Shown: positions 1 through 4,396 of the stretch, piece after piece
Position numbering within the stretch: position 1 is the stretch's first letter
Layout: the number at the start of each line of letters is the position of its first letter
Assembly (NCBI RefSeq): GCF_005239135.1
Contig: NZ_QKNX01000001.1
Span: 620,001-684,000, forward strand
Length of the DNA: 64,000 nt
Origin: Natronomonas salsuginis
Lineage (GTDB): Archaea; Halobacteriota; Halobacteria; Halobacteriales; Haloarculaceae
Direction of reading: 5' to 3'
The notes under the pieces: generated by a model
What the model saw: the letters and a program-made list of their open reading frames with translations, nothing else
Told to the model about the DNA's origin: nothing
Database searches by the model: none
Made by a program: the position numbers and the translations under genes

Positions 1-1781
1 TTGCGCTGATCGATTTTACCTATGGACCGATTTTTTGGGTGGACATCATATACGGGTACACGTTGATCACGATTGCGATGGTTCTCTTGCTCCGCCTTGT
101 TTTCCAATCTGATTATCTGTACACCGACCAGTCGGCACTCCTCCTCGTAGGAATCGTCACACCTTTGCTCGGGAACGTCGCCGATAACTTTTTCTGGGCG
201 TCAAACGTTCTCATTGACCCAACGCCGTATGCATTCACGGTGACCGGCCTCACGTTCGGGTACGCTCTCTTTCGCCGACAGCTGTTCGATCTCGTCCCCG
301 CAACCCGACAGCTCGGCCGAAACGCAGCTATCAGCCAGCTCGACACGGGGGTCGTGATCGTGGACAACGCCCGCCGCATCGTCTACGCCAATGGGGCTGC
401 TGTCGACGTGATCGGCTGCGAACGTGCTGATGTACTCGGCCACGATATTCGGTCACTCGTCAACAGCACCGTGATTGATTTCGAGACTGAAGACGCCCTT
501 GCGGAACTCGAAATCGACGCGAACGTCTACGAAGTCAGAACCTCACCGATCACCGACCAGATTGACCGTCAGATCGGCCACACGTTCATCATCAACGACA
601 TCACCGACAGAAAGCGGCGGGTACGGGAACTGGCTGAGCAACGTAATGAACTTGCTACTGTCAACGAACTGAACGCTGTCATTCGTGGCGTCAACCAGGC
701 ACTCGTTTCGGCGTCCAGCCGGGAAGCTGTCGAACGCGCCGTCTGCGAGCGGATCGCCGATTCCGAACTCTACCGGACCGCCTGTGTCGCCGATGTCACC
801 ACGTGGACAGGCAAGGCCGATCGCTGGCTCGTCGCAGGAGATCAGGTCGATCTGTCCCCCCCTACTCTTGATGATGATTACATTGAAAACGGGGCACTCG
901 AACGGAGCGAAAAGCAGACTATAGCACCCGAGTCGACGACCGGGGACGGTACCTGGGCAATTATTCCTGTCGTCTACGGCCGTACTGTGCATGGGGTCCT
1001 CGGCTTCTACACCGACCGCGGGAAAATTAGCGACCGTGAGCGAGCGGTCCTTGGTGAACTCGGCGAAATCGTCGGCTACGCTCTCAATTCCGCCGAGGTG
1101 CGCCAACTCCTCTCGGCCGAGGCAGTTACCGAGGTCGAACTGGAGAGTACTGACGATAGCGACTCGCTCATTTTCGTGTCGATTGCCGCAGAGTGCCACC
1201 TCGAACTCGCAGGTCTCGTTCCGGGGGGTGAGGCGGGTCACGTCGCCTATCTCCGCCTCGAGGATGGCGACATCTCGATGGTCGCCGACGAACTCGAGCA
1301 ATCGGGCGAAGTGCGAGTAATCCACGATGGCGAGACAGACGGGGTCCTCGAATGGCAGACAAGAGGCGACACACTCCTCGGAATGCTCGTCGGCATCGGC
1401 GCGAACGTCCAGCATGCCACTGTCGAGGATGGTCGTGCCAGCTACACCCTCGAAATCGCTTCCGAGTCGAACGTCAGAGCACTGGTCGACGCGGTCGAGA
1501 AGCAGTTCCCCGACACGTGGATAGTGGCGAAACGGGAACGCACTCATCCCGTCGAACGTGCCGACGAAATTTCCGAGCACAGTCTACAGAATCTCACGGA
1601 CCGGCAGGCGGAAGCGCTGGAAGCGGCCTATCGAGCCGGCTACTTCGGGTGGCCACGAGACTCCACGGCCGAGGAAGTTGCTGGCGTTCTTGACATTTCG
1701 GCATCGACCCTCCACGCCCACCTCAGGAAAGCCGAAAATCAGATCATGGCCGATCTGTTCGATCCAGAGGCTGCCGATTGA
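1..1781 (+). CDS. Membrane-tethered Bat-type transcriptional regulator (5' end outside window)
   Basis: The reading frame is open from the first bases of the window, so the gene starts upstream; 592 residues are visible. The N-terminal part has about three hydrophobic segments (visible residues about 15-34, 45-65 and 75-90) that resemble the 7TM sensor region found in haloarchaeal histidine kinases. A PAS domain follows (about 112-205, containing VIVDNARRIVYANGAA), then a GAF-like domain (about 222-367), a Bat sensor-like domain, and a C-terminal Bat/HTH_10 helix-turn-helix (about 531-580, containing LTDRQAEALEAAYRAGYFGW). No histidine kinase core is visible. The arrangement suggests a one-component regulator in which a membrane sensor is joined directly to a DNA-binding domain. 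The domain types are confident; ligand and targets are unknown. Confidence 0.85.
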   Translation, partial: ALIDFTYGPIFWVDIIYGYTLITIAMVLLLRLVFQSDYLYTDQSALLLVGIVTPLLGNVADNFFWASNVLIDPTPYAFTVTGLTFGYALFRRQLFDLVPATRQLGRNAAISQLDTGVVIVDNARRIVYANGAAVDVIGCERADVLGHDIRSLVNSTVIDFETEDALAELEIDANVYEVRTSPITDQIDRQIGHTFIINDITDRKRRVRELAEQRNELATVNELNAVIRGVNQALVSASSREAVERAVCERIADSELYRTACVADVTTWTGKADRWLVAGDQVDLSPPTLDDDYIENGALERSEKQTIAPESTTGDGTWAIIPVVYGRTVHGVLGFYTDRGKISDRERAVLGELGEIVGYALNSAEVRQLLSAEAVTEVELESTDDSDSLIFVSIAAECHLELAGLVPGGEAGHVAYLRLEDGDISMVADELEQSGEVRVIHDGETDGVLEWQTRGDTLLGMLVGIGANVQHATVEDGRASYTLEIASESNVRALVDAVEKQFPDTWIVAKRERTHPVERADEISEHSLQNLTDRQAEALEAAYRAGYFGWPRDSTAEEVAGVLDISASTLHAHLRKAENQIMADLFDPEAAD

Positions 1782-1858: not shown

Positions 1859-2206
1859 TTACGAGTCTCCCCGTTCACGCCACGACAGTACGGCCCCGAT
1901 GAACAGAAACGCGGGGAGAATCGCGACGACGGGGGATGCGACACTGCCGACGAGGAACGGCGCCCCAACGATGAGTAGGATTGTAGTCGCAACGAGCCGA
2001 TACGATTCGCGATACAGGAGATAGATCGCGGGGAGTGTCACGAGGAACGCGGCCGCGGTCACGACGAGGATGCCTCCTCCGAGAAAGAGTCGCATGATGG
2101 CACTCGCGTTCTCGGGCGTACCGGTCATCTCCGAACCGAGCAGCACACCACCAACCCCTAATTGGGCAAGGAACCCGACAAACACCACCTGCCAGCTTCG
2201 GGGCAT
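1859..2206 (-). CDS. Small hypothetical membrane protein
   Basis: I do not recognise the family. The 115-residue product is almost entirely hydrophobic, with about four membrane segments, a short basic-acidic tail (WRERGDS) and no catalytic motif. An upstream in-frame start at 2305 would add 33 hydrophilic, Arg-rich residues. I chose the ATG at 2206 because a GGAG motif lies about 8 bases before it and the protein then begins just before the first membrane segment. It lies 95 bases downstream of the YPGSMW-repeat lipoprotein gene on the same strand, so the two may be co-transcribed. Its function cannot be inferred. Confidence 0.6.
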   Translation of the reverse strand: MPRSWQVVFVGFLAQLGVGGVLLGSEMTGTPENASAIMRLFLGGGILVVTAAAFLVTLPAIYLLYRESYRLVATTILLIVGAPFLVGSVASPVVAILPAFLFIGAVLSWRERGDS

Positions 2207-2301: not shown

Positions 2302-3894
2302 TCAATCACGTCGGGCGGTAATCCGTGGAACGACGACCTGCATCATTGCTCGGGCATCGAGATACCAATTTTTCCAACTGATGATCGGGAACGGTATCGG
2401 CGGTTCTACTTCCTCCCCGTCAGTATTCCCACCGACGGATTCGAGCGGTGCTCGTTGCGTACCGACAGCCATCACGTGATCGTCCGGTGTCGCGCGTACG
2501 ATGTGTACGCCGACAGCCCAGGGTCCATTCCGGCCGCTGATCACGCCCGCGTACGTCTCGATGGCCGTCGGTTCGTCGATGATCGACGGCTCCGTTGGCC
2601 GCAACGATTCAGGCGCGTTGTCCGCAATCTCCGCGTCAAGAGCGAGATAACCCTCCCGCGAGAGCCGTTTCGGACCGTCGATCCATCGAACGTCGTCCAC
2701 ATCGGAAACGCCAGCATTTCCGAGGAGCGTTCGCGCGGTGTCGTCCGTTAGCAACGTTTTCGAATCCATCGAAACGATCGGGTTTGCTTCGGCGCCCCCG
2801 ATTGACGCCGACGGCGTGGAGAGTACGCCAAGATCGAATACGGCACCCCCAAGCGCGGCCGGGCGACCGTTCCTGAACAGCACTCCGTACCCGTCAGGAA
2901 ATTCCCAACTGAACAGTGCGTCCCCGACGCTCGCGACGGTCAGAGTTTGCACGTCGAACGTTTCTCCAGGCTCGACGGGACGTCCCCCGACGGCAGCGAG
3001 ATCCACGCCGAAGACGTCGGCGAACGACTGACTTTCCCGAAGGAACACGAGCGTCGGAGCCGCAACCCGCTCTTGCTCGTCGGACGACCCGGATGCGGTC
3101 ACAGAGCCCTCAGTCTGTGAGCGGGGGACCCACGTCCGCCCGGGATACCAGCCAGTCTCCGCGATCCACATACTTCCCGGATACCACTGGCTCCCCGGAT
3201 ACCACATGCTACCCGGATACCACATGCTACCCGGATACAGTTCTTCGTCCGTGAGCCACATGCTCCCCGGATAGAAGTTTCGTCCCGGGACTTCGAACGC
3301 GGTCACACCACCCAGTTCCTCGAGCCGTACGGTCTCTCGCTCGAGAGCGCCCCCGCTGAACACCGAAATCGGGCTCCCACTCGCCTCGGAACGCAATCCA
3401 GCGGGCGCGAGGAGCGCGATCGCGGCAGGATCGATCTCGACGTCCGACCCGAAGACTGAGACGGTCTGGTCGCCCGAATCGAGGTCGCTCCCGGATGTGA
3501 GCGTCGCACCGTCCCTGAGTTGTCCGCCGTTCAGATTCTTCACGTACTGCCCGACCGCCGTTCGTACCGCACCGTTCTCAGCGACTCCTTTTTCTCTGCT
3601 GTAAGAGGCGAAGTGACTGGTGACGGTGATTTCGAAGTCCCCGTTCAGCCCAGTTCGAGAGACGCTCGCGGAATCACGGGCTGTTTCACCCAGTAGCAGC
3701 CCTTCTTGATCGGAGGGCGGCAACTCGAGTGGGGTCGATTCGAATTGCTGTTTCGTCACGTCTGAGCAGCCGGCAAGCGACATCGCTCCGAGGACCGAAA
3801 GGCCGGAGAGGACGTCACGTCTACGGAATTCGATCGGGTTGAACACGTCAAACCAGCGTTCGGGGGTCGACTTGACTGTTGACGCTACGTACAT
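2302..3894 (-). CDS. Tat-type lipoprotein with YPGSMW tandem repeats
   Basis: This 530-residue protein has a twin-arginine signal (FRRRDVLSGL, residues 23-32), a hydrophobic stretch and a lipobox LAGC with Cys43, so it is probably exported folded and lipid-anchored on the cell surface. In the middle are six copies of a YPGSMW hexapeptide (residues 208-213, 220-243 as four adjacent copies, 250-255), including the variants YPGSQW and YPGRTW. The flanking parts are ordinary acidic haloarchaeal sequence without a motif I can name. The C-terminal section (residues about 400-500) weakly recalls haloarchaeal lipoprotein DUFs. The start is uncertain: ATG at 3894, or GTG at 3846, which gives a more typical short N-region. 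A TATA-like AT-rich motif lies at 3906-3914. Function unknown. Confidence 0.75.
   Translation of the reverse strand: MYVASTVKSTPERWFDVFNPIEFRRRDVLSGLSVLGAMSLAGCSDVTKQQFESTPLELPPSDQEGLLLGETARDSASVSRTGLNGDFEITVTSHFASYSREKGVAENGAVRTAVGQYVKNLNGGQLRDGATLTSGSDLDSGDQTVSVFGSDVEIDPAAIALLAPAGLRSEASGSPISVFSGGALERETVRLEELGGVTAFEVPGRNFYPGSMWLTDEELYPGSMWYPGSMWYPGSQWYPGSMWIAETGWYPGRTWVPRSQTEGSVTASGSSDEQERVAAPTLVFLRESQSFADVFGVDLAAVGGRPVEPGETFDVQTLTVASVGDALFSWEFPDGYGVLFRNGRPAALGGAVFDLGVLSTPSASIGGAEANPIVSMDSKTLLTDDTARTLLGNAGVSDVDDVRWIDGPKRLSREGYLALDAEIADNAPESLRPTEPSIIDEPTAIETYAGVISGRNGPWAVGVHIVRATPDDHVMAVGTQRAPLESVGGNTDGEEVEPPIPFPIISWKNWYLDARAMMQVVVPRITARRD
3130..3273 (-). repeat. In-frame 18-base repeats encoding YPGSMW
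   Basis: Six units of 18 bases encode the hexapeptide YPGSMW or a variant. Four are directly adjacent (3166-3237), one lies before them in the protein (3256-3273) and one after (3130-3147). Adjacent units are nearly identical in DNA (cggataccacatgctac on the plus strand), which points to recent slippage or unequal exchange. The outer copies have diverged. Confidence 0.95.
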
Positions 3895-4278: not shown

Positions 4279-4324
4279 GAGGGTCGGCGAGGCCACGACT
4301 GACCGAACGAAGTGAGGGAAGAAG

Positions 4325-4396
4325 TGGACTCGCCGGGATTTGAACCCGGGGCCTCTCCCATGCCAAGGGAGTGATCTACCGCTGATCTACGAGCCC
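4325..4396 (-). tRNA. tRNA-Ala (anticodon GGC)
   Basis: Read on the minus strand, the 72-base gene folds as a full cloverleaf. The acceptor arm is GGGCTCG/CGAGTCC with discriminator A. The anticodon stem CTCCC/GGGAG encloses loop TTGGCAT, giving anticodon GGC for alanine. The T-loop is GGTTCAAATCC. CCA is not encoded, as is usual in haloarchaea. Confidence 0.95.

Follow-up and report, generated by a model that had tools for sequence, protein, structure and literature searches.

The genome of Natronomonas salsuginis encodes a lipoprotein with a run of tryptophan-rich hexapeptides, and this locus raises the question of what such a run does in an exported haloarchaeal protein. The gene was analysed within a stretch of 64,000 nucleotides (the window, whose positions are used below). 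It is an open reading frame of 530 amino acids on the reverse strand at 2302..3894, as the first-pass annotation had correctly placed it, and its long form occurs once in the genome. Residues 1-43 (3766..3894, reverse strand) form a putative signal peptide containing the twin-arginine stretch RRRDVL (24-29) and the lipobox LAGC (40-43), in the context EFRRRDVLSGLSVLGAMSLAGC with serine next. Haloarchaeal Tat lipoproteins are defined by a twin arginine, 12-21 residues and a lipobox of the LAGC type (PMC2945643); here 16 residues lie between the arginines at 25-26 and C43, and LAGC is followed by S. Both signal elements are kept in four full-length homologues. The earlier description of the protein as Tat-exported and lipid-anchored agrees with this motif, from which we infer export and lipid anchoring.

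The C-terminal part of the protein (residues 355-478; 2461..2832, reverse strand) matches the DUF6517 profile (PF20127) with 24.3 bits, just above the curated cut-off of 23.9, and covers positions 71-162 of the 187 in the profile. The long-form relatives scanned score 37.7-63.2 bits, and the common short DUF6517 proteins match positions 1-187 or nearly all of them. With the haloarchaeal lipoproteins of this family the window protein shares the Tat lipobox and the C-terminal pattern LSTPxASVAGQSxNP ... AGVxDxxxVxWxxGP ... ETYAGVxSG; for its N-terminal segment, the alignment with short members was judged only by eye. The usual DUF6517 proteins have about 220-290 residues and match the whole profile, whereas the 530-residue window protein has an extra middle region that bears the array. 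It is, judged by these features, a divergent long-form member of the family. A search of 243 haloarchaeal genomes found DUF6517 in 212, most members being short lipoproteins, and N. salsuginis has a second, ordinary member at C1:137456-138007. A literature search found no work on DUF6517 or on YPGSMW.

The array occupies residues 202-261 (3112..3291, reverse strand) and reads VPGRNF YPGSMW LTDEEL YPGSMW YPGSMW YPGSQW YPGSMW IAETGW YPGRTW VPRSQT. Aromatic residues recur at lags of 6 and 12, and the six-residue register is unbroken throughout, LTDEEL and IAETGW filling the remaining slots; that both interruptions are themselves six residues long had escaped the first-pass annotation. The latter counted six copies of YPGSMW, four of them adjacent. 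Exact copies number four, at 3256..3273, 3220..3237, 3202..3219 and 3166..3183 (all units on the reverse strand), and six are reached loosely if the variants YPGSQW (3184..3201) and YPGRTW (3130..3147) are admitted; the adjacent run of four is YPGSMW-YPGSMW-YPGSQW-YPGSMW, so that one of its members is YPGSQW. At the DNA level, an 18-bp repeat at 3166-3238 (4.1 copies, 87%) is the top-scoring tandem repeat found by TRF in the window. The repeated 18-mer was found 5 times against 0.06 expected per shuffled window, and in none of 5000 residue shuffles of the protein did any hexapeptide occur four times. The description of the repeat as aromatic-rich was borne out; the array has the highest tryptophan density (7 per 60 residues) among the open reading frames of the window. 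It is nearly neutral (4 acidic, 3 basic residues) within an acidic protein and contains neither cysteine nor histidine. YPGSxW is encoded five times in the 2.9-Mb genome, every time in this gene, and the reversed-pattern control gave zero. An origin of the repeat as a mobile DNA element was rejected, given that YPGSxW occurs nowhere else in the genome and that another repeat of the family, TGNNPF (described below), is found only in DUF6517 genes.

Full-length relatives, 71-78% identical, are present in Halobaculum gomorrense, Haloferax profundi, Haloferax elongans and 'Halomicroarcula' SYNS111, and the array lies at the same position in all four. The corresponding tandem run comprises four units in the window protein, YPGSQW included, compared with three adjacent YPGSMW units in H. 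gomorrense, H. profundi and SYNS111 and two in H. elongans. Homologues of variable copy number in other haloarchaea were what the first-pass annotation had named as support for a real surface system, and these were found. Among the close homologues, length differences within the array are whole hexads, one or two in number; the Ser/Glu linker that follows it immediately differs by four residues, and YPGSMW is retained in all five nearest sequences. The array recurs in genomes that were recorded separately, which excludes an assembly artefact.

More distant long-form members are about 24-32% identical in alignment, and some have arrays that spell the hexad differently: a plasmid protein of Natronosalvus (L071) has ten IPGSTW/IPGSSW units, and others have FPGDTW (L072), FPGETY (L067), IPGSQW (L064), FPDSTF/FPDGYF (L062, L063, L065) and FPGDSF (L226, L227). 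Several distant homologues have no array or have unrelated repeats (TGNNPF, DRHGP), and array-less relatives show a single hexad-like segment at the corresponding place (VPGRAFFHDRAW, SSFFPYRTW, LRDVLPAQSW). When runs were anchored solely on proline every six residues, 140 units from 15 genes gave the consensus [FIY]-P-[GD]-[SDG]-[TSMA]-[FW], in which position 5 may also be given as x. Position 1 is F, I or Y in 121 of the 140 units, position 3 is G or D in 119, and position 6 is F, W or Y in 121. Pro 2 and the aromatic residue at 6 are kept across relatives, and the methionine at position 5 becomes T, S, Q, A, E or Y.

Genome surveys indicated how far the array extends beyond this family. Three tandem PGxxW units were found in nine of 392 genomes, seven times in DUF6517 lipoproteins and twice in short basic frames that do not resemble the family; reversing the pattern as a control gave no matches. 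A second search, for four tandem P[GDE]xx[aromatic, Cys or Leu] units, was positive in 22 of 382 genomes, with scattered matches in the reversed-pattern control. The positives were sorted by the author, with criteria such as a long acidic reading frame. Ten were long acidic frames with credible arrays, nine of them DUF6517 lipoproteins; the rest were mostly near-identical DNA repeats, short or basic frames, or had Cys or Leu in the aromatic slot. The tenth (L210, genome G075) belongs to DUF1102 and weakly resembles the fimbrial adapter TafE (42.7 bits, well below the NCBIfam cut-off of 155), adjoining a TafC-like frame. It carries the same hexad module, FPDSTF FPDSIF FPDSAF FPDSTF FPGADW, but in an unrelated host domain, and is not a Tat lipoprotein of the DUF6517 family. 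The window protein itself gave no match to the TafE profile of NCBIfam, and a literature search by name found no work on Taf fimbrial proteins. Besides its FPDSTF hexads, the G075 protein (L210/L236) carries a DPDxM segment resembling one in long DUF6517 proteins. By these pattern searches the hexad array is nearly restricted to one family, DUF6517, and it is a real, recurrent and apparently undescribed surface module of that family in many haloarchaea.

Other repeats occur in the same family. TGNNPFx is present in one to five copies, with varied codons, in the long DUF6517 proteins L054, L055, L056, L066 and L070, and in each of the five genomes having TGNNPF it is confined to the DUF6517 gene. 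A lipoprotein of genome G144 (L060) has four scattered copies of DRHGP[ML], which is the N-terminal motif of haloarchaeal gp19-like proteins.

In most arrays identical hexapeptides are often written with different codons. Synonymous differences per pair of identical units reach 3.73 in the Natronosalvus protein; two of the close homologues have 2.5 and 2.33, the window array has 1.33 and the Halobaculum array 0. The pN/pS between neighbouring units is 0.27 overall, a value biased downwards since the units were picked by a pattern. Identical peptides with diverged codons therefore point to old arrays, kept by selection on the protein. Units 2 and 3 of the window array (3220..3237 and 3202..3219) have identical DNA, which shows one recent duplication, with new units still being added. 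The near-identical DNA reported earlier thus holds for these two adjacent units, but not for the four identical peptides as a set, given their average of 1.33 synonymous bases per unit. The accompanying proposal of active repeat expansion fits the identical pair and the change of copy number between species, but not the synonymous divergence of most units in most genomes.

The full-length AlphaFold model was unusable (pLDDT 33). A model of residues 155-345 reached a pLDDT of about 70-86 on either side of the array and about 27-31 within it; confidence was moderate for the flanks (167-207 and 281-327) and none for the array (217-277). Its alignment comprised five close sequences only, and the mean exceeded 50 in just the best of five models. 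This pattern is as for a loop leaving a small folded alpha/beta domain, but the low confidence over the array may only reflect the five-sequence alignment, and a disordered spacer would give an equally low value. The fragment model matched no known fold, and a PDB sequence search returned chance matches only, one being an aromatic repeat from the loop of a sodium channel. The consensus [FIY]-P-[GD]-x-x-[FW] differs from that of left-handed beta-helix hexapeptide proteins ([LIV]-[GAED]-x2-[STAV]-x); those proteins form a solenoid, whereas the array model, at low confidence, contains none and has no PDB relative. Elastin VPGxG and glutenin PGQGQQ are beta-turn repeats. The array resembles them in having short Pro-Gly units that recur every five or six residues, but is not related to them in sequence, the resemblance being of kind only.

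The lipoprotein gene is directly followed by a gene for a small membrane protein (1859..2206, reverse strand) of about 115 residues, with a start at MPRSWQVVF picked from conservation and about four transmembrane segments judged by eye. The small protein has no match in Pfam or NCBIfam, and its gene follows the lipoprotein gene in all five close genomes (homologue loci L031-L034); the two probably form one operon. Tail to tail with the pair lies a HisKA_7TM/PAS/GAF/BAT/HTH_10 regulator on the forward strand, which begins before the window (1..1781) and shares 80% identity with its counterpart near the Halobaculum homologue; such a HisKA_7TM-BAT-HTH_10 regulator is also found near one Haloferax homologue. 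Of 23 loci, 11 had regulators or histidine kinases in the flanks that were fetched, but both gene kinds are common in haloarchaea. A tRNA-Ala(GGC) gene lies just upstream of the lipoprotein gene (4324..4396, reverse strand), and no attachment-site repeat was found beyond a 14-bp tRNA fragment. GC3 is 0.68-0.69 in the lipoprotein and regulator genes versus 0.87-0.90 in two nearby genes, the nearest relative (78%) belongs to another family than the host, and any match was found in 18 of 146 genomes and 7 of 22 genera of the host's own family. The low GC3, the foreign relative, the patchy matches and the adjoining tRNA gene suggest horizontal gain.

A viral origin was rejected, since phage records and viral contigs yielded no relative of the protein; 34 pattern matches in viral contigs resembled short or collagen-like frames, and no match resembled the DUF6517 family. 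A contractile injection system was likewise rejected as context, the one tail-tube (PF06841) gene of the genome being on another contig. This gp19-like gene (L202) is located at G000:C3:281721-282140, and no tail sheath was recognised among its flanking frames, judged by their first residues. In other genomes, Phage-T4-gp19-like tail-tube genes (PF06841) lie inside a long DUF6517 lipoprotein gene (L057 in G117, L058 in G047, L059 in G048, and in G049). There an N-terminal lipoprotein frame ending near '...GG' plus one residue is followed by a gp19 gene starting MxDRHGPxR and then by a fusion of a second gp19 domain with the C-terminal half of the lipoprotein. In L055, L061, L066, L068 and L069 the lipoprotein gene is broken at nearly the same point (about residue 100) into two frames that overlap or adjoin, with offsets of either one or two bases, and in L055 and L066 the second half begins with the gp19-like DRHGPLR. 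These split frames may be candidates for gene fission or recoding.

The reading that we prefer, tentatively and as somewhat short of an even chance, is that the array is an exposed, length-adjustable loop of aromatic turn repeats for multivalent binding in the cell envelope. The protein would be exported folded through the Tat pathway and anchored by its lipid to the outside of the cytoplasmic membrane, below the S-layer, with the array projecting from the extra domain between the N-terminal segment and the C-terminal DUF6517 domain. Each Pro-Gly or Pro-Asp of the hexads, which follow [F/I/Y]-P-[G/D]-polar-x-[W/F], is probably a beta-turn, and such turns would set aromatic pairs every six residues along the exposed loop. 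The array could then act as a multivalent sticky element of adjustable length for an envelope partner such as a surface protein, the S-layer, a glycan or a filament. Repeated 18-bp duplication of one ancestral hexad, surviving in the array-less relatives, probably produced the array, with selection on the peptide afterwards. The lipobox, family, hexad register, homology, copy-number change, synonymous divergence and near restriction to one family are features of the sequences; exposure, turn form, binding and partner are what we infer. The binding role is favoured because the aromatic and proline positions are conserved, and an aromatic binding surface, one of the early proposals, is compatible with the data.

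The main rival is a plain spacer, in which turn repeats born by slippage, loosely constrained in composition and with no partner, distance the DUF6517 domain from the membrane. Copy number that varies between species, partly recent tandem duplication, the lack of model confidence and the adjoining Ser/Glu-rich linker would all suit a spacer, but a spacer should not hold an aromatic residue at position 6 and F, I or Y at position 1 in most units of 15 genes, nor identical peptides while codons diverge, and tryptophan, a costly residue, is rare in this setting (0.9% of residues); we consider it unlikely, if a real possibility. Rather improbable is the view that the array and the FPDSTF, TGNNPF and DRHGP repeats are variable surface segments that diversify under pressure exerted, for instance, by viruses or neighbour cells using the lipoprotein as a receptor. 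It would account for different repeats in different genomes within one protein family, for the patchy gene and for the signs of horizontal gain, but units within each array are kept at the protein level, YPGSMW persists in all five nearest sequences, and no phage or virus relative was found.

That the hexads form a regular beta-solenoid or a stacked beta-turn ribbon, a structural domain instead of a flexible loop, would agree with the register that persists even across the degenerate LTDEEL and IAETGW and with the aromatic periodicity. We regard it as quite improbable in view of the very low pLDDT over the array and because copy numbers do not come in the multiples of three that a three-sided solenoid would favour. 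The metal or small-ligand site suggested by the first-pass annotation draws on Met and Trp recurring every six residues in this clade; it is highly improbable because the methionine is peculiar to this clade, being replaced in the wider family where proline and the aromatic persist, and Cys and His are missing from the array.

Extending the preferred binding reading beyond one family, the [FIY]P[GD]xx[FW] array could be a transferable extracellular binding module of haloarchaeal lipoproteins and fimbrial adapters, docking to a common partner with a strength set by copy number, an idea to which we give a low probability. DUF6517 proteins are present in most haloarchaea without a known role, and the array offers a concrete handle, to be deleted, shortened or swapped, on this widespread uncharacterised lipoprotein family. 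A repeat module in many spellings, changing in copy number and kept by protein-level selection, would mark a place where the protein touches something.
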